Positions 11,174-32,509 of a stretch of DNA of 32,509 nt are shown here, piece by piece. The stretch spans positions 1 through 32,509 of the IMG/VR virus record IMGVR_UViG_3300009165_000017, one strand, 5' to 3'. Origin of the DNA: a virus. The position numbers and the translations under genes were made by a program. Below the pieces are notes generated by a model that was not told the DNA's origin, did not search any database, and saw nothing but the letters and a program-made list of their open reading frames with translations. Positions within the stretch are counted from its first letter, which is position 1, and each line of letters starts with the position of its first letter.

Positions 11174-13414
11174 CTAAGTATTGTCGCTTCTACTTAACTC
11201 ATACCATTTATTATCCGCCTTGCAAATCAGCGTCAATGTATCCGTTGCGGCCATAACAAAGTTCGCACTGCCATTTAGGAATATGTTGGTGCCATCAGTG
11301 ATTGTAATTGCGTGTTCGGACACAATAGTAATTACCTGCCCTTCAACTCCATCATCAAAGTCGGTAATGGTTGTTGTACCGCCAGTCACAAAGTTATTGC
11401 CACCTGCGACTGACGGAGTAGCATCATCAGCGAGAGTAGTAAACCTTTTGCTCTCTCGCCCTCCTCCAATGTAGATTACATCTCCCGTAAATAAACCGCC
11501 TTTTTCTTGAATAAAATTTTCTGCTATTTCTTCATTTTCTATAATTTCAATTGTCGGATACGCAACCCACACATCACCAGTTACATCCCCAGAACCGTAA
11601 TAAAATAAAACACCTGTTGCTGTATCAGAAATAACATTAAGCGAGGTCCATTCAATAGTTTCCCACTCACCACTTCCACTATGTAATATAACCGAAGTTA
11701 AATTAACATTTCCTGCGGTTGGATCAACTATCGTAAGCTGTAAGAATCCGGCACCGACTACAGTGGTAAGAGCTTTAATTGAAAAGTGTAGTCTTTTACC
11801 TTTAAGGAATTCAATATCTACTCCATTACGATTAGGAGTAGTATCAGTAAGATACCCATAAAGATAGATGTTGGTTCCAGTGGGAGTAAACTTAACAGAG
11901 TTTCCATCTTTATAATTAACTGTAGTATCAATGCTGAACCCGGCTGGGTTATTTTGAATACCGTATGGTCTACTTAATGAATCATAGTATTTAATACGAG
12001 GGTCTTTCCAAAGGTTTTTAGATGAGACCACTTGTGTAGCAGATCTTAGATAACCATTTTTTATATCTACTACGTTATACATTCCATCATCTTGTACTAT
12101 TGTCTCTATTGCCTGTCGAGGATAACGTTGCCACGTAGTATTAATAGTCCTATTGTGATCCCCATCTATGTCAAACATTACTGGTTGAATGGTTGCAGTG
12201 TCAGTAAACTCAATGTATTGATTTATAAAGGTATTTCTACTTCCTTCTACATGATAACCTTTATTAATATTTGTGTTAGAAGATGCTTCAATTCCTCCCC
12301 CGATGAAGGTGTTACCATTTCCTCCGACAAATACCATTGTTCCATGTCTTCCTGAAACAACTACATTCTGAAATACATTATCATTAGAATTACTTTGAGA
12401 ATCCAGCCCATCAGACGGAATACGCAGTCCTATTTCACCTACCAAGCCTGTATCTTGAGCTATATGAATCTCCGATAATGACGCCCAATAATTTCCAGAA
12501 GATACACCATACTGCCCTAATTGAATGCCATAAATGTCGAAGTTTTGCACCCTAACCTGATAAGCATTTGCAGCTATCTGTCCATAGAGTGACAATCCAG
12601 ATTGAGACACTGATACATTAGTTGATCTTGATGATTGAAGTGTTAAATTGCTTATAGTCGCACCACGCTGAGAAGTGCTTAATGTAACTAAGGTTCCAGT
12701 ACATGTATCATCATAGAATTTTATTATTGTGTTTTCTTTCGATGTACCTATTATATCTTGAGTAAAAGTAACGCCACTACTCAATAGATATGTCCCATCT
12801 GGTATATTTAATGGACTATCTTGTGTTGCGGCTAAGGCAAATGAAGTATAATCGTCTGTCACTCCGTCCCCAACCGCCCCGTATTCCTTAACATTGATAA
12901 AGCCCTTATCTATCCATGCAGGGAGACTGCTTTGATTCACTATCAGGGAATTTCCGGCTGTTCCTATCGCTAACCGGCTTAATGCCGTAGTCGAACTGGC
13001 GTATAACAGATCGCCCGTAGCATAAGTTGACGGATCTCCGGGAGTAGGGACAACGGGAGCGTCTGCCGGACCGCCGATATACACATACACGTTCGCCGTC
13101 GATCCGCTGGAGTTCGAGACAAGCACATTGGATAACCCCGTTCCGCCCAAATAATGCACCCTGTTTGCGTCCAAAGTTATCGCCGTATCAGACGCCGATT
13201 GTCGCCAGCTAATATTCTGATCCGATTCAAGTAGAAGAATATTGATTGACCCAACGCCGTTATCCAGATCAAAGGGAATTTGCTGATCGGTAGTCCCGGT
13301 CGCTAACTGGTAATTCTGCCATGCGCTCTCATCAACAGAGATTGACTGCCTGCTAGTAAATAGAAGGTTCTTTTTCGCGTCTTCAATCTCCATTTTGAAA
13401 TTAACAATCGGCAT
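11174..13414 (-). CDS. Tail spike with pectate-lyase-type beta-helix
   Basis: A 746-residue receptor-binding spike. Residues 1-115 form a beta-rich virion-binding domain shared with the 116-residue neighbour. Residues 131-170 (GDLLYASSTTALSRLAIGTAG) are a linker seen in many phage fibres. From 171, INVKEYGAVGDGVTDDYTSF opens a pectate-lyase-3 type parallel beta-helix running to about 450, usually trimeric and able to bind or cleave surface polysaccharide. A jelly-roll-like segment follows (about 490-640). Residues 655-746 (FTTLADDATPSVAGGN, TTITDFDDGVEGQ) are a recurrent C-terminal spike module. The beta-helix part is clearly richer in A+T than both ends, as expected for an exchanged receptor-binding cassette. 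Catalytic residues cannot be assigned. Confidence 0.9.
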   Translation of the reverse strand: MPIVNFKMEIEDAKKNLLFTSRQSISVDESAWQNYQLATGTTDQQIPFDLDNGVGSINILLLESDQNISWRQSASDTAITLDANRVHYLGGTGLSNVLVSNSSGSTANVYVYIGGPADAPVVPTPGDPSTYATGDLLYASSTTALSRLAIGTAGNSLIVNQSSLPAWIDKGFINVKEYGAVGDGVTDDYTSFALAATQDSPLNIPDGTYLLSSGVTFTQDIIGTSKENTIIKFYDDTCTGTLVTLSTSQRGATISNLTLQSSRSTNVSVSQSGLSLYGQIAANAYQVRVQNFDIYGIQLGQYGVSSGNYWASLSEIHIAQDTGLVGEIGLRIPSDGLDSQSNSNDNVFQNVVVSGRHGTMVFVGGNGNTFIGGGIEASSNTNINKGYHVEGSRNTFINQYIEFTDTATIQPVMFDIDGDHNRTINTTWQRYPRQAIETIVQDDGMYNVVDIKNGYLRSATQVVSSKNLWKDPRIKYYDSLSRPYGIQNNPAGFSIDTTVNYKDGNSVKFTPTGTNIYLYGYLTDTTPNRNGVDIEFLKGKRLHFSIKALTTVVGAGFLQLTIVDPTAGNVNLTSVILHSGSGEWETIEWTSLNVISDTATGVLFYYGSGDVTGDVWVAYPTIEIIENEEIAENFIQEKGGLFTGDVIYIGGGRESKRFTTLADDATPSVAGGNNFVTGGTTTITDFDDGVEGQVITIVSEHAITITDGTNIFLNGSANFVMAATDTLTLICKADNKWYELSRSDNT

Positions 13415-13416
13415 GT

Positions 13417-14064
13417 TTACCCTTTTATTTTCGGAACCATTCGTGTGCCGCGACTTGACGCTATAGTATAAATAAGGTCTTTCAAACTGTCCCTGTATAA
13501 AGCTTCATACTGCTTCGGTAATGGCCGCCTGAGAACTCCATACAATAGAACCGGATTGTTTTCCGGAAAACTCGGTATTTGATTCTCCGCAGTTAAACTC
13601 CAATCCGTAGGCGAATACAATCCATTGACGCTATAGTTATCATCAGGCGTGGGGGATAATACAAGTTCCTTCCTTCCGCTTGGAAGGTTCATGATTGTAT
13701 AAGATGAGGGAATGCTATTCTGGATTGCCCGAAGATCCTGCGAATAGAACTGCGCCGGCGATTTATATTCCAGCGCCGATTCGTTAGTACCATCATCCAA
13801 CATGCAACAGTATTTATCCCCAACCGTTCCGGCATTCTTGACAAAGTTCATTGGAAAATTATTTGGCAAAGGATAATTCTTCGTTCCGGCCACAGTGGAC
13901 ACAATTGGATTGAGATAAATATAGAAGCAGTCTGCCGGAACTTTCGAAGTGATAATGGATAATTCACTGCTTATCCATCGAAGCAAAGTAAGCCTGTCAG
14001 GAGGTTGTTGCCCATTAGTGGAATATGCCTGTTCGATATCATCCAATATTTCCTTAACCTGCAT
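13417..14064 (-). CDS. Head-tail adaptor-like (neck) protein
   Basis: About 215 residues from the ATG at 14064 (a TTG two codons upstream is the alternative), with GGCGG just before it. Helical N terminus (QVKEILDDIEQAY, LTLLRWISSELSIITSKVPADCF), a strand region TVAGTKNYPLPNNFPMNFVKN, then GRKELVLSPTPDDNYSVNGLYSP, and a helical end (KQYEALYRDSLKDLIYTIASSRG). The helix, then Tyr-x-Leu-Pro-x-Asn-Phe, then beta, then helix plan is typical of phage neck adaptors that join portal and tail. It overlaps the stop of the preceding Cys-rich gene and lies just before the spike. The family is not firmly recognised. Confidence 0.55.
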   Translation of the reverse strand: MQVKEILDDIEQAYSTNGQQPPDRLTLLRWISSELSIITSKVPADCFYIYLNPIVSTVAGTKNYPLPNNFPMNFVKNAGTVGDKYCCMLDDGTNESALEYKSPAQFYSQDLRAIQNSIPSSYTIMNLPSGRKELVLSPTPDDNYSVNGLYSPTDWSLTAENQIPSFPENNPVLLYGVLRRPLPKQYEALYRDSLKDLIYTIASSRGTRMVPKIKG

Positions 14065-14287
14065 TTTCAACCGCCTTTAGTTTTTGACCATTGGATTCCC
14101 GTAACACTTGATTCCGGTATTTCTCGACATTCTTTGCCATAGCGGTTAACCCATCAAGCGTAATCTGCTGCAATCCTGACAAGTATTCACCGGCTAAGGC
14201 TTCGTGTCGTTGACAGAAATGGTTTTTTTGATGGTAATCGCCATCTTTAATTTGCTGATGGCATATGTCGCAACAACAGATAATCAT
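14054..14287 (-). CDS. Small Cys/His-rich putative zinc-binding protein
   Basis: A 77-residue protein. Residues 4-28 carry CCCDIC and HFCQRH, giving a CxxC...CxxH arrangement suited to binding one zinc ion; the rest is a charged helix (QQITLDGLTAMAKNVEKYRNQVLRES). The ATG overlaps the stop of the secreted beta-helix gene (ATGA), and the end overlaps the adaptor gene by 11 bases, so it is part of the operon. Function unknown; zinc binding is inferred from spacing. Confidence 0.6.
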   Translation of the reverse strand: MIICCCDICHQQIKDGDYHQKNHFCQRHEALAGEYLSGLQQITLDGLTAMAKNVEKYRNQVLRESNGQKLKAVENAG

Positions 14288-16416
14288 CTCCTCATCCTTC
14301 CTCTACTCCCGCCGCCTTCCCCTGCTTCTGCCGGAGTATAGTTTACGACTATTGAATCTCCATCACCCCAATTAGCAGCGGCATCCGTACAGCCGATATA
14401 GAGATTGTTTGCACCTTCTGCGAAGCCTGTCACCAGACAGGATGACGTTCCGACACAAGCTGAACCGTTCGAAGCATCCGGCGCAGATTCCAACCGGGAT
14501 TTACAGGAAGTCACGCCTACCGCATCGGTCGTGGTATGGTTCACAACCAGACTGTCGAGGGTGATATTTGTCGGATCTGACGTGGTGATAGTCGTTGCCG
14601 GTGCGGTTGTGTCGGGAGATTCGTCTTGGTCATATTCATAAGCGCCATAGTCGGGAGCAGAACCGCTAAGAACCACCGTTCCATCAGAATCCTTATACAG
14701 CCAAACCGGGGCATTGTCCGCCCATGAAATAGCAGATGCCAATGTAATCGTATTGGTATCGTAGTCGATAGAACTGATTTGGACTGTATTCCCAATAGTT
14801 CCAACTGCAATATAGTCGGCTGCCATTGTGACCGATGAAGGCCACGCCAGAGGGCTTCCAGTCCCAAAATTACCGTCTTGGAAGTATCGCGCATCATCCA
14901 CTACAAGTTCTTCTGAACTCGATCCCGATCCATTTGCCTGAGTGAGATACGATCCACCATCCAGTGCCGGAGATTCCCCCTGTAGATTCAAATTAGGAAG
15001 CACCAAGGATGTAGCATCGACATGACTCTCATTCACGAACATAGGATCAGTTTCAGCGGCCCACTCTAACCCTCCGTTTAGGTTATTTGCTATTATATTA
15101 TTACCTTTTGCGGGGTCAACTGCATCTGCAACGGTTTGTCCACCACTAGGTATCCATACTATTTTGGGGGTTTCTATGTTTGCGTTAATATAAAACAGAT
15201 TATTTTTCAGTGCATTATGATATAACCTATCCCATAATGTTGTTGTGCCGTTATAGGCCCATACAATAGTGTCATAATAAGCTACTTCACTCCCCGGCTT
15301 GGCATAGTAACCATTCGCAAATACAGTATTATTGTAAACATAATTATAATTTGAATCATCATAGGTTGCAGTCTGTGGATAAAATGAAAAAGGGGTTCCT
15401 TGATTGGCGATAAATGAATTGAATCTCACTATATTATATGAACTGCCTAATTTCAATCCTTGTCCGCCTTTCCCTGCTGTATCATTATACAATGGGCTTG
15501 CCCATCCGATCCTATTTCCTTCCACAAGGTTGTAACCTACATATCCCGGATTCCCATCGCTGATTATATTCCGATACCCATATAAAACTTCATCATCGAG
15601 TGTGTCGAACCAAGGCTCATTATGGAAATAATTATTTCTAACTACATTATGCTCTCCCATCATCCCTAAAGTCGCATGTCCTGCTTTGCCGAATTCATTG
15701 TATTCCAATACGTTATAATATGTCCTTTCGTTGCTCGCGTCTGCATCTTCCATGCCTATATCAAACATATTGCCGTCTGCGCTGGATGGATCAGTCCCTA
15801 TAGTGCCATGTTCTTCAAATTCACAGTGGTGAATATGGTTGTAATATGCCTGTTTCCATATTACCGATCCTTGCCAATCCCAACCCCCCCAAGATGCGTC
15901 AAGGAACGATTGTCCGAAATATACATAAGATATTTCATTATATGAGCTATCCCCCGTTGGGTTGGTGCCCGTTGACGGGCCTATCACAAGATTCTCACCC
16001 ATCTTTGTAAAGTTCAACTGTCCTAATGTTGTGCCTGTTACTTTGATATAACTCTTTGCATTTATCCATATTCCGAATGATGAATTACCTTCATCCGCTG
16101 TTCCCACGACATTTACAACTTCATCCGAATATGGCATGAATGTAATTGGATGTCCGGATGTGCCAGAATTATATGGCTGGATAAACGTATCCGAACCTAA
16201 AGAATAGGTTCCAGCCCTATAATAAACAACATCATCTGCGACAACACCCGACCCGTTTGCCAGATCATAATTACATGCATCCGTGCCACTCAGAGGTGTT
16301 GCACCGGAACAGGCAGCTATATTCGCTGCCTCTCCGGTTGAAGAGATCCAGTATGTTTCGGAATGAGATATCCTTACCAAGCTAAGTAAGATAATTAGAA
16401 TAGATAATAGTTTCAT
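14284..16416 (-). CDS. Secreted right-handed beta-helix protein with C-terminal Ig-like domain
   Basis: A 710-residue protein beginning with a signal peptide (MKLLSILIILLSLVRISHS, cleavage predicted near residue 19). Residues about 20-115 form a first beta part ending in HPITFMPYSDEVVNVVG. Residues about 120-480 are repeated short strands rich in Asn and Tyr (YNVLEYNEFG, NVVRNNYFHNE, NIVRFNSFIANQG, NYVYNNTVFANG), the pattern of a pectate-lyase-like parallel beta-helix. Near 590-700 a Thr-rich beta domain follows (DTTAPATTITTSDPTNIT) with four cysteines (SCKSRLES, SACVG, SSCLV, IGCTD) that could form disulfides outside the cytoplasm. ATG and the previous TAA overlap by one base. Export is unusual for a virion protein. 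Polysaccharide binding or cleavage is likely, but catalytic residues are not identified. The central DNA is A+T-rich. Confidence 0.8.
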   Translation of the reverse strand: MKLLSILIILLSLVRISHSETYWISSTGEAANIAACSGATPLSGTDACNYDLANGSGVVADDVVYYRAGTYSLGSDTFIQPYNSGTSGHPITFMPYSDEVVNVVGTADEGNSSFGIWINAKSYIKVTGTTLGQLNFTKMGENLVIGPSTGTNPTGDSSYNEISYVYFGQSFLDASWGGWDWQGSVIWKQAYYNHIHHCEFEEHGTIGTDPSSADGNMFDIGMEDADASNERTYYNVLEYNEFGKAGHATLGMMGEHNVVRNNYFHNEPWFDTLDDEVLYGYRNIISDGNPGYVGYNLVEGNRIGWASPLYNDTAGKGGQGLKLGSSYNIVRFNSFIANQGTPFSFYPQTATYDDSNYNYVYNNTVFANGYYAKPGSEVAYYDTIVWAYNGTTTLWDRLYHNALKNNLFYINANIETPKIVWIPSGGQTVADAVDPAKGNNIIANNLNGGLEWAAETDPMFVNESHVDATSLVLPNLNLQGESPALDGGSYLTQANGSGSSSEELVVDDARYFQDGNFGTGSPLAWPSSVTMAADYIAVGTIGNTVQISSIDYDTNTITLASAISWADNAPVWLYKDSDGTVVLSGSAPDYGAYEYDQDESPDTTAPATTITTSDPTNITLDSLVVNHTTTDAVGVTSCKSRLESAPDASNGSACVGTSSCLVTGFAEGANNLYIGCTDAAANWGDGDSIVVNYTPAEAGEGGGSRGRMRR

Positions 16417-27372: not shown

Positions 27373-30309
27373 TCAGTACCCCGTGCATTCGTTTCTGGTT
27401 GCATTCGTTTTAGTTTGCACATGCTGTTGAAATATCCTATTTTCTTTCAATCGCCGCAATTGAGGATAGACTTTCGCGCCGAGAACAGCCATAGCGCCAG
27501 TCATTACACAATTATGAACAATAATTCCATTGGCAACAAAGGATCTATCTTCTTTTACTTGAAGATTATATACTTTCCCATTATAATGATATTTTCTAAT
27601 CTTCCTTGCATTAGACCCAAAATGCATTCCTGACAATCGACGCTGTCTGGAAAATCCTGGCCACTTATCATGAATAGCTACCCAATATTGATTCTTTGAT
27701 TTTTTATTATACCGATGTCGCGTTACTTCTTGAAGTGTTGCGTATTTCCCATATACCCATGATATATCCCTCATATCAAGAGCAAGGGACTTACTCGTCG
27801 TACATCCAATTATATGATTTTGGCCTGCTCTATACCACCCGTCCCCCGCCAACCATTCATTTAAAATAGAGTCCCAATAATTCGATAATTGCGTAAAGTA
27901 TGGAGGAAGTATTTTTTCTTTATTTTCGTCATAGCATAATCTGAGCGCATAATGCAATAATTTTGAATTGGCGGCTATAGCAACACAATTCTTTCCTCTT
28001 CTATCTAACCGTATAGACGCTCCTATAGATTCCAGATATTGAGAATACTTTTTTATTCCTAAAATATCTGTTTTATTAAATGATAATTCGATTCTATAGC
28101 CTGAGGTATTTTTCCAACCATTATTTTTACTTTTGGATGCACATCCATCCGCCAGAAATCTACCGAGAAATTCCGCAAAATCTCGATCAAGAGGAATTGT
28201 TTTTAGCTTTACTGGACCTCTATTTTTATATTTAAACTGTGATTCGGTGATTGCATCGATTTCTAATGGATAATTCTCTCTCCCATCAATTACCGATGCA
28301 CACGAGAATGAAGTTTTTTTCCAATCACCAGGGACGACCCATAGACTTCTATGTGATTTCCACATTGAGACGCCATCAACTGTTTTAGGATAGGCCAATA
28401 ATGGATGGTTATAACTCAATTCAATAGGCAATTGGCCCATGAAACGAAATTCGTAGAAATCACCTGAAAACGGTTTTTCAATACATTTCTCTACGGGTTT
28501 GTACCGTCCCATATGCGTCATAACCATATCGCCCGGACGAATATTCTCTATCGGACGATATCCGATATTTGTTTTTATTAGCGTGCCTTGTTTTAGGCAA
28601 TCATCGTGATATCCGGCTTCAGCTTCCGTACCCCCGCCGGGTTTCTTTATGAATGTCCGTAATTGGCTGACGGTTTTCTTACTGTGAAACACAATCTCAT
28701 TATTCGATATGGCCTCGGCCAAGCCGCCTATCAGGATGCTTTCCTTATTCCCTACTGTCGTCCTGAAGCCTATTTCACGGTTCATACGCGTCTTGTCCGT
28801 ATCCCAATCATCTCGATGGTACAATCGTTCACGCGGATATTCCCGCCCTAACTCGATGCAAAGCATTCTACCACTACTATTGCATTCTGGAATAATAAAA
28901 GCGTTATTATAATATTCAGCAATCAGCATGGCCGGCGACTTCAGGTTCTCCACAGCTATCGGGGCCGCAAGTTGCGCCACTTGTTCCATCTGATTGTCGC
29001 AATCGTACACATCAATCACGCTATCGTCCTGAGCGCGGCCATGAGCGTCAAGTTTCCCTTCCGCCGTGTCAATCGCAACGACGTATCTGTGCCCGTGCAT
29101 TGGTTCCCGATACCGAGTCAAATCCCCCTTCGGATCATTCCGAAACAATATCGCCTTATCCCATCTTCCGGAATAATACAGTTCACCCTTAATCCCATCC
29201 TCAATCGGCATACGGTCAATCGCTGCATGATCGAACCGCGACCGGCCACTGGCCCGCACCCCCTCCTCGGGCGTCATCGGATATTCCTGGGCAAAAATAT
29301 CTTCATTGCCCTGGCATGTCAATTTCAATTGCATCCGCCGCCAGTTCAGCAATTCCAGACTTGCACCTTGATCCTCATGATAATATTTCTCTCTTACGCT
29401 TAAACTATTTCGAAAATTCTCCTTTTCATTCTGATCCTTAAATTCCAACCACGCATCTTCATCGTCTTTGATCGAAATAAATACCGGAACAAAATGATTC
29501 CACTTTACCGGATTCGTCACTTCGTAATGCGCCACCAACTTCTGACTACCAAACTGATCCTTCTCTTCCGTGAACCAGACCCGACAGTTCTGATACGCAT
29601 CTTCCCAATACGGCAGAAATAGCCCATCATGCCCGTTAAACGTGCTCTCAATTATCATCGTCGTGTTCGGCATCGTCGCAATCGCTTGAAATAAACTTAT
29701 CGCCACATCCGCACCCTTCTCCCACTTCGATTGCTCGCTGGCCAGGATATACTGCGGCGTCTGTCCCGTCCCCGCGTACTTGCTCCCCGCCGTCTCAACC
29801 CATATGTGCCCTTCAGCACTCTGAAACCTAAGTTCCCGCTTGTTCGTCACTCCCTTGTACAACTTCGGACGCGATAACGGCGGAATGTCCGGCGTCCATG
29901 GCTTGTCCAGATTCTCGAAAAATCGCGTCGCTATCTGAAATAACTTCTCGCTCAAATCCACTTCGTGCGTGATAATCAACCCATCCAACCCTTCAAACAG
30001 TACACTCGCCAACATATCTGCCGCAACAAACGTACTTAATCCCCGCTTCCGACTCTTCGCTATTATTATTCGTACCGGCTGCTTGCTCCCCCTCAACAAT
30101 TCTATCATCGCCATTACTTTCCGCTGCGCATACGTCAACGGACTCATCAACTGCAACGCCCCCTGCTTGTTCTTTATCACGCAATGCCGCTCAAATAACC
30201 ACGTCCTCGACCTCCGGCATAACTCCTCCTCCATCGCACAGATCTCTTCCCACGGCACCTCGCCCTTGTAACTCGCAGGCTTCCTCGGCGGCACTACGTT
30301 TATTCCCAT
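27373..30309 (-). CDS. terL: Terminase large subunit with internal intein
   Basis: A 978-residue translation; the mature protein would be 615 residues after removal of residues 571-933. It is the packaging ATPase and nuclease that pumps DNA into the head. ATPase: a Walker-A-type IIIAKSRKRGLST (81-93), Walker B TTMIIEST with Glu221. Nuclease: VVAIDTAEGK (Asp414), DDSVIDVYD (429 on), and the third motif HDD (568-570), with CVMTGAMA resuming at 934. The ATG lies within the end of the 53-aa zinc-ribbon gene (10-base overlap), and the stop is two bases before the portal ATG. The start codon region has AGAGG upstream. Function and inteins are well supported; the spliced product is inferred. Confidence 0.95.
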   Translation of the reverse strand: MGINVVPPRKPASYKGEVPWEEICAMEEELCRRSRTWLFERHCVIKNKQGALQLMSPLTYAQRKVMAMIELLRGSKQPVRIIIAKSRKRGLSTFVAADMLASVLFEGLDGLIITHEVDLSEKLFQIATRFFENLDKPWTPDIPPLSRPKLYKGVTNKRELRFQSAEGHIWVETAGSKYAGTGQTPQYILASEQSKWEKGADVAISLFQAIATMPNTTMIIESTFNGHDGLFLPYWEDAYQNCRVWFTEEKDQFGSQKLVAHYEVTNPVKWNHFVPVFISIKDDEDAWLEFKDQNEKENFRNSLSVREKYYHEDQGASLELLNWRRMQLKLTCQGNEDIFAQEYPMTPEEGVRASGRSRFDHAAIDRMPIEDGIKGELYYSGRWDKAILFRNDPKGDLTRYREPMHGHRYVVAIDTAEGKLDAHGRAQDDSVIDVYDCDNQMEQVAQLAAPIAVENLKSPAMLIAEYYNNAFIIPECNSSGRMLCIELGREYPRERLYHRDDWDTDKTRMNREIGFRTTVGNKESILIGGLAEAISNNEIVFHSKKTVSQLRTFIKKPGGGTEAEAGYHDDCLKQGTLIKTNIGYRPIENIRPGDMVMTHMGRYKPVEKCIEKPFSGDFYEFRFMGQLPIELSYNHPLLAYPKTVDGVSMWKSHRSLWVVPGDWKKTSFSCASVIDGRENYPLEIDAITESQFKYKNRGPVKLKTIPLDRDFAEFLGRFLADGCASKSKNNGWKNTSGYRIELSFNKTDILGIKKYSQYLESIGASIRLDRRGKNCVAIAANSKLLHYALRLCYDENKEKILPPYFTQLSNYWDSILNEWLAGDGWYRAGQNHIIGCTTSKSLALDMRDISWVYGKYATLQEVTRHRYNKKSKNQYWVAIHDKWPGFSRQRRLSGMHFGSNARKIRKYHYNGKVYNLQVKEDRSFVANGIIVHNCVMTGAMAVLGAKVYPQLRRLKENRIFQQHVQTKTNATRNECTGY
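27511..28599 (-). mobile_element. LAGLIDADG intein within the large terminase
   Basis: In-frame intein, 363 residues (571-933 of the precursor). It starts with Cys571 (CLKQGTLIKT, RPIENIRPGD, block A), has a block B His635 (YNHPLLAYP), and ends VYNLQVKEDRSFVANGIIVHN with His932 and Asn933, followed by Cys934 as the +1 nucleophile. Two LAGLIDADG motifs, FLGRFLADG (714-722) and ILNEWLAGDG (815-824), each keep the acidic residue, so the homing endonuclease may be active. All residues needed for class 1 splicing are present. Base composition differs sharply: 13 G/C of 60 in 28021-28080, against 44 of 60 in 29221-29280 of the host gene. Confidence 0.95.
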
Positions 30310-30903: not shown

Positions 30904-31401
30904 TTAACTTCCCCCACCATCCCATAATACCTCAACTTCACTCACCCCATGATGATATTTCATGTGCTCACTCTGATTCTCAAATACCACCAAATTCCCC
31001 ACCTCATTGTTCCTATTGTCCCCATCCCGATGATGCACCACATTGTGCGGCTCCAACCGGTAATAATGCCCAACTACCTGCCTCCCTATGTTCTGCCCCT
31101 GCCTCCAGGAATAATACGCCGGATTCTCCCGACTCTTGTGATAACACTCCTCTCCACAGTACTGCCTCACCGCCTTCCGCCACTCCGACCGCCTCTTCCT
31201 CACCCCATTCCCACAATAATCACATACACACTCCACCCACTCCCCATCCTTCGCCACCACCCCCGCTCCCCGCAGTATCTTCATCACATTCGCCCGCGTC
31301 ATCCCGTACCTGTCCCCTATCTGCTGATACGTCAAATGCTGCATCGTGTACATCACTACCATCTCTTCCACCCGGTATTTATATCGCTTCCTCGCTCCCA
31401 T
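30904..31401 (-). CDS. HNH endonuclease with helix-turn-helix and zinc motif
   Basis: 165 residues from the ATG at 31401. That start is chosen because a G-rich ribosome site (GGTGGGGAA region) lies just upstream and the promoter at 31440-31469 makes earlier GTG/ATG codons fall at or before the transcript start. Residues about 10-48 form a helix-turn-helix (LTYQQIGDRYGMTRANVMKILRGAG). CVCDYC (58-63) and YCGEECYH (81-88) form a zinc site. LEPHNVVHHRDGDNRNNEVGNLVVFENQSEHMKYHH (117-151) is the HNH nuclease core, with paired His, central Asn and final His. It could be a free-standing homing endonuclease or a packaging partner, since HNH proteins beside terminases aid DNA cleavage in HK97-like phages. 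The coding strand is extremely C-poor. Confidence 0.85.
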   Translation of the reverse strand: MGARKRYKYRVEEMVVMYTMQHLTYQQIGDRYGMTRANVMKILRGAGVVAKDGEWVECVCDYCGNGVRKRRSEWRKAVRQYCGEECYHKSRENPAYYSWRQGQNIGRQVVGHYYRLEPHNVVHHRDGDNRNNEVGNLVVFENQSEHMKYHHGVSEVEVLWDGGGS

Positions 31402-31439
31402 TTCCCCACCCCCACCATTACGTTTACTACACACCATCA

Positions 31440-31469
31440 CTTATACCACTATCATCAATGCTTTGTCAA
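31440..31469 (-). promoter_or_regulatory. Sigma70-type promoter of the late operon
   Basis: On the minus strand TTGACA (31464-31469, perfect), an 18-base spacer, then TATAAG (31440-31445, five of six), with TG one base upstream giving an extended -10. It is intergenic and points toward the HNH gene, terL and all later genes. The predicted start near 31433 leaves a leader of about 32 bases before the HNH ATG. A+T-rich sequence lies further upstream (31498-31524). Confidence 0.75.
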
Positions 31470-31800: not shown

Positions 31801-32346
31801 CTATGAATCGGCACCTGGATCAGTGCCGGTATCTGCTGTAATATCAATAGCTTGCGGAGTATCGCCCTGTAATTGGCGCAACTCTGCATCGGTAGGCTTA
31901 CGACCGTGTAGCACGATGTACCGCATCTCAATGTCTGAGACCCCGATATTGATCTGCGTTGTGGGTCTGCGCTCTGATTGCTGGTCTTGGTCCGGATACG
32001 CACCTATGAGCCTTGCTGCCATATCAGCGCCTCGTAGCCTTATTCCATGCGCTTGCGCGGAGATGATTGACTCATCGCATCTCATTGCATCATCAATTAC
32101 AGTGGTGATTTTTTCTTCGATTGGCTTGGATTTGGAAAGTAGGGCAAGAATCGCTGCCTGAATATTCGGTTTGGTCAAGTTTTCTGATGCCATTTGCCTT
32201 GCAGTGGCTAAATTCTGTTCACTTTGCCCTAAATCGTAGGCTTCTAGGGCTGCTTTGAATCCATTTCGCCCGTTTTTTAGGTACTCAGTGGTAAATTTGG
32301 CCTGTTTTGCGGTAAGTGGCCGGAGAGACTTGTTATCGCTTGCCAT
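31801..32346 (-). CDS. terS: Terminase small subunit
   Basis: About 181 residues from the ATG at 32346; a TTG at 32382, right after tandem stop codons, would add 12. Neither has a convincing ribosome site. It recognises the genome end or pac sequence and feeds DNA to the large subunit. The N-terminal LTAKQAKFTTEYLKNGRNGFKAALEAYDLGQSEQNLATARQMASENLTKPNIQAAI (about residues 9-64) is the classic small-terminase helix-turn-helix and oligomerisation region. The C terminus is Thr/Asp-rich (ITADTGTDPGADS), a usual large-subunit contact. It is separated from terL by three genes and a promoter, rather than being adjacent. Confidence 0.85.
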   Translation of the reverse strand: MASDNKSLRPLTAKQAKFTTEYLKNGRNGFKAALEAYDLGQSEQNLATARQMASENLTKPNIQAAILALLSKSKPIEEKITTVIDDAMRCDESIISAQAHGIRLRGADMAARLIGAYPDQDQQSERRPTTQINIGVSDIEMRYIVLHGRKPTDAELRQLQGDTPQAIDITADTGTDPGADS

Positions 32347-32509
32347 ACGGACATGATAAGGCAGGTTGGAGCTGGATTGCAAGCGGAATTATTAATTACC
32401 TGGGATAATGAGCCTAGCTCTGCGCTCAAGCTCATCGGAGATATGGGCAAGAATATAAAGACTACGGACATATTTCCGGATGGAAGATAGATATTGAGTA
32501 GGGATATCA

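Follow-up and report, generated by a model that had tools for sequence, protein, structure and literature searches.

Inteins in large terminases (TerL) are already known, as are one case in the nuclease domain and the idea that splicing controls packaging. In mycobacteriophages, TerL inteins occupy seven sites (TerL1-a to -e, TerL6-f, and Pham3880-g), all in the ATPase domain and none in the nuclease domain; for some of them, splicing has been demonstrated and endonuclease cleavage assayed (PMC5050341). The intein of the phiCbK terminase lies in the N-terminal part of the protein (PMC3556154), and the TerL of the crAss Delta group typically contains an intein (PMC7886860). Cyanophage Mic1 (MN013189) has an intein in the TerL nuclease domain, and its splicing has been proposed to control packaging (PMC7156551).

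The window analysed here is a stretch of 32,509 nucleotides from the IMG/VR virus record IMGVR_UViG_3300009165_000017, and the intein in its terL gene joins this known type. It is inserted in the nuclease domain and fits none of the seven mycobacteriophage sites. Like the Mic1 intein, it interrupts motif III of the nuclease domain and has cysteines at its first and +1 positions. However, the Mic1 intein sits one residue downstream (DHL|CDALRY, where the bar marks the junction), is only 146 aa long, lacks an endonuclease, and falls outside the clade of the window's intein in our tree, whereas the window's insertion directly follows the second Asp (HDD|C) and is therefore not at the DHL|C site.

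Besides the IMG/VR relatives described below, two other viral terminases are interrupted at the same residue position as the window's. Methanomassiliicoccales virus vir335 (BK063680, DBA35577.1) reads FNH|C...SN|CMDSLRYA, but its intein is 132 aa long and without an endonuclease, its host is an archaeal virus, and its record is labelled only 'terminase large subunit'. Gut phage MT835839 reads FDR|C...HN|CMALIQ, but it has recoded TAG stops and a distant intein that lies outside the window's clade; from its TAG recoding and terminase it may be read as crAss-like. A search of the open-access literature returned no paper that describes inteins at HDD|C or the family to which they belong. As far as searched, the site is recurrent in sequence data and apparently undescribed as such. 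This answers a question raised in the earlier note, whether the position is already recorded: many genomes of uncultivated viruses have an intein there, and GenBank records contain others without annotation.

The precursor frame (27373-30309, minus strand) encodes 978 aa with no internal stop, and its predicted length after splicing is 615 aa. In precursor numbering, the HDD triad occupies residues 568-570 and the 363-residue intein residues 571-933, with Cys934 as the +1 residue; the boundaries proposed in the earlier note, 27511-28599, agree exactly with the frame and junctions. The host protein is a large terminase by its match to a PHROG terminase family (E 4e-14), while no Pfam terminase model reached the N-extein. 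It contains the TerL motifs KSRKRGLST (85-93), YILASE (187-192), and IIESTFNG (219-226) and the RNase H-like nuclease acids Asp414, Glu475, and Asp570. The Walker-type ATPase and the greater part of the nuclease domain lie in the N-extein. Two further IMG/VR contigs hold identical intein copies with the same junctions, at 100% identity over 8,992-8,999 bases, and an IMG/VR search for terminases closely related to the window's returned nothing beyond these copies. No close intein-free relative of that terminase was found, the nearest being about 27-30% identical.

Table 1. Positions of the terminase genes, exteins, and intein residues in the window.
Feature	Position	Strand	Basis
Terminase small subunit, upstream of terL	31801..32382	(-)	phrog_51, E 4e-12
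N-extein of large terminase, residues 1-570, ending at catalytic Asp570	28600..30309	(-)	alignment to intein-free terminases, PHROG, T4 gp17 motifs
HDD triad, residues 568-570, Asp570 being the intein -1 residue	28600..28608	(-)	T4 gp17 motif alignment; PMC3012670
LAGLIDADG intein, 363 aa, precursor residues 571-933	27511..28599	(-)	open frame, junctions, Pfam/NCBIfam, fold, 14 distinct same-site relatives
Intein Cys1 codon	28597..28599	(-)	read at the N-junction
Block B histidine, His65 in S-Y-N-H-P	28405..28407	(-)	invariant in both intein alignments (A1, A3)
LAGLIDADG motif 1 aspartate, Asp151 of FLGRFLADG	28147..28149	(-)	invariant in 8/8 endonuclease-bearing inteins
LAGLIDADG motif 2 aspartate, Asp253 of LNEWLAGDG	27841..27843	(-)	invariant in 8/8 endonuclease-bearing inteins
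Intein C-terminal His362-Asn363	27511..27516	(-)	invariant in relatives
C-extein, Cys934 to Tyr978, starting CVMTGAMAV	27376..27510	(-)	alignment with the CVM/TVM/LVM helix in terminases lacking an intein

The insert is confirmed as a class-1-like intein with an embedded LAGLIDADG endonuclease, apparently complete. All splicing residues are present: Cys1 (Cys571), the block B His65, which satisfies the [TS]xxH pattern as S-Y-N-H65, His362, Asn363, and Cys+1 (VHN|C). The four within the intein are invariant among relatives in the alignments, and both LAGLIDADG helices keep their catalytic aspartates, Asp151 and Asp253. Pfam Hint_2 scores above its cut-off (34.7 vs 28.4 bits), as does NCBIfam intein_Cterm on the precursor (32.3 vs 15.6 bits), whereas Pfam Intein_splicing matches below its cut-off (29.5 vs 35.8). 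Chance origin is excluded because 14 distinct homologous inteins share the site in other viral terminases.

An AlphaFold2 model of the intein, built on eight relatives (pLDDT 82.6), aligns across residues 1-363 with TliVMA, PI-PkoII, PI-PfuI, and PI-SceI, with Z scores from 29.4 to about 20. TliVMA (7qss/7qsu) and PI-PkoII (2cw7) share the Hint plus LAGLIDADG architecture over the whole length (Z 28-29), but they are only 18-20% identical in sequence and reside in archaeal host proteins. The Hint fold superposes on solved mini-inteins at 1.5-2 Å rmsd over about 125-130 residues (Z 18-19), and the model also matches the LAGLIDADG endonucleases I-DmoI and PI-SceI in fold. A model of the whole 978-residue precursor was poor and was set aside (pLDDT 45.9, pTM 0.32). 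Junction residues, Hint blocks, aspartates, and full-length fold thus bear out the earlier description of a complete intein with all splicing residues and both LAGLIDADG motifs intact.

The intein lies exactly between Asp570 and Cys934 (HDD|C...HN|C). The catalytic triad of T4 gp17, which binds metal, consists of D401, E458, and D542 (PMC3012670), and Asp542 is the second Asp of motif III, EEGYHDDLVMSL. The window's motif III, EAGYHDD|CVMTGAM, aligns its Asp570 with this Asp542, and the residue at the intein's -1 position is therefore itself catalytic. The intein thus follows immediately after the acidic residues of motif III, as had been proposed from the sequence alone. In some inteins, an Asp at the -1 position promotes premature N-terminal cleavage. 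The exteins join cleanly when compared with intein-free homologues (GYHDD|CVMT against GYHDDLVMS in T4, and HHDDCIMG, NDDTVMA, and YDDTVMA elsewhere), and 116 empty motif III sites in two other terminase families also join cleanly. The +1 position is already Cys, Ser, or Thr in 106 of these 116 empty terminases, so the residue required for splicing precedes invasion.

Relatives were sought in IMG/VR with a scan for the C-junction pattern and a profile search. Fifteen distinct IMG/VR terminases, including the window's, are interrupted at exactly the same residue by full-length inteins that are homologous to one another, and the window's intein is 36-47% identical to the other 14. In the profile search, all relatives at least 36% identical occupy DD|C of terminase motif III; those at 33% (L230 and L231) are in a terminase one residue downstream of DD|C, and those below 30% occur in varied proteins. 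The tree joins the eight endonuclease-bearing motif III inteins in one clade (support 100/99), separate from inteins of other terminase sites, methyltransferases, a portal protein, thymidylate synthase, and a polymerase.

A second, shorter lineage at the same site (L025, L034, L035) has no recognisable LAGLIDADG motif. Shorter inteins without a recognisable endonuclease at the site include those of L034 (235 aa), L035 (283 aa), and vir335 (132 aa; L006:1729-3642), the last an archaeal-virus terminase whose GenBank record does not annotate the mini-intein in motif III. Inteins one residue downstream (HDDx|C) occur in Mic1 (L067:1-2859), L230, L257, and L276, and motif III has two adjacent insertion points, HDD|C and one residue further on. 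The tree is compatible with one origin or with several for the motif III inteins.

Among 50,697 sequenced-phage records, three queries found no intein belonging to the same clade as the window's; matches there were 20-26% identical at full length, mostly in other genes, or short. The C-junction pattern in bacterial genomes yielded no recognised motif III terminase intein, most matches being non-coding in frame, and the N-junction DNA pattern HDDC...GT picked up nothing but terminases without an intein, unrelated frames, and noise. A T4-like terminase precursor of ~1,800 residues (L033:2377-7776, minus strand, and L041) apparently carries three inteins. The first and second are separated by nine extein residues (TGGKCMLIS); at the C-terminus of the second, His-Gln takes the place of His-Asn.

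Comparison of inteins with their hosts points to horizontal spread between terminases. Pairs among the 15 members were classed as distant where nuclease-domain identity was below 30%. In all 80 distant pairs the inteins are more alike than the terminases (means 42.8% vs 22.5%), and such an excess is a sign of transfer. The 11 close pairs show the reverse (inteins 54.7%, terminases 64.3%), with the terminases more alike in 10 of them, so slow intein evolution fails as an explanation.

One T4-like group, which carries a sister of the window's intein, contains both an empty (L083) and an occupied (L086) allele, 99.6% identical, with the insertion exactly at GAT|TGC and flanks identical at 1530/1536 upstream and 255/258 downstream bases. 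The three mismatches at -22, +2, and +5 resemble a trace of co-conversion (nominal p 0.0003, for positions picked after inspection). Between the occupied L086 and L080, 1/1095 intein bases differ against 18/1794 flanking bases (p 0.003). Six T4-like terminases are occupied and 72 empty, the six representing one distinct sequence, and a second terminase set has 1 occupied and 44 empty. In these nearly identical phages, L083 (4000-5800) and L086, the end of an intein at the P-loop (SHN|TISAS) is also visible, and the sequence of that intein is not the same in the two.

The insert is very probably a mobile homing intein that invaded terL at the motif III codons, splices, and spreads by its endonuclease. 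Its GC content, below that of the host gene, also speaks for this reading. On the other side stand the Intein_splicing score below its cut-off, the remoteness of the nearest intein-free terminases, the Asp at -1, and the choice of the three co-conversion mismatches after inspection. Under this mechanism, a class-1-like LAGLIDADG intein would have entered terL at the conserved nuclease motif III codons and, after translation, would excise itself by the Cys1/block B His/His-Asn/Cys+1 pathway to leave the 615-residue terminase. Its endonuclease would cut intein-free terL at the conserved HDD|C codons, and repair would copy the intein in, a spread that should be easy during phage co-infection. We infer both splicing and DNA cleavage by the window's intein from its sequence. 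The unspliced precursor likely lacks nuclease activity because the chain is diverted directly after a metal ligand.

An alternative is that the intein is kept as a conditional switch, with a nuclease-dead precursor held until a cell signal (redox, metal, or DNA) times genome cutting. The alignment of Asp570 with T4 Asp542 means that the unspliced protein probably cannot form its metal site, endonuclease-free shorter inteins persist at the position (L034, L035, vir335), and the same idea has been put forward for Mic1 (PMC7156551). Nevertheless, this explanation is unlikely: only the minority of related terminases counted above are occupied, an almost identical terminase does without the sister intein, which is therefore dispensable in that protein, neither an additional conserved domain nor a sensor motif was seen, and the mini-inteins may be decaying relics. 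Regulation by splicing is possible but unneeded, as homing and neutral splicing account for the distribution.

Decay of the window's own copy, leaving it dead for splicing or for endonuclease activity, is less probable still. Endonuclease loss is frequent among inteins, and the L025/L034/L035 lineage at the same site shows no LAGLIDADG motif, but in the window's copy the frame is open, no junction residue is missing, and the two LAGLIDADG aspartates are intact, and identical copies recur in two further contigs. In addition, loss of splicing in an essential gene would be lethal. Misassembly or a chimera, with the insert not truly inside terL, could explain the step in GC content at the intein boundaries (36.5% in the intein vs 49.8% in the host gene; 28.7% vs 58.4% at third positions) but is negligibly probable given that two other IMG/VR contigs share the junctions, the frame is open through both, and other assemblies have homologous inteins at the same codons.

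More useful than the single intein is the pattern across its family, in which one lineage keeps to a specific site in motif III of the nuclease. It extends terminase inteins beyond the ATPase domain and Mic1 to a recurrent, exact site on a catalytic residue, and one intein lineage appears to cross between packaging enzymes only about 22% alike. On a wider and doubtful reading, motif III is permanently targeted by a lineage of site-specific homing inteins that moves among distantly related packaging enzymes of tailed phages; with a catalytic metal ligand at -1, the nuclease would stay silent until splicing, and some phages may use this to delay genome cutting. The empty and occupied alleles provide a ready system for testing whether the intein homes from one phage to another, and the catalytic Asp at -1 lets a single assay link splicing with nuclease activity.

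The position upstream of terL often houses free-standing homing or packaging-associated HNH genes. In the window, an HNH endonuclease-like gene (30904-31440, minus strand; phrog_15471, E 3e-6) lies directly upstream of terL. Elsewhere in the window, 11174-16416 (minus strand) encodes two long putative repeat-rich tail-spike or adhesin proteins (11174-13414 and 14284-16416), as judged by eye.
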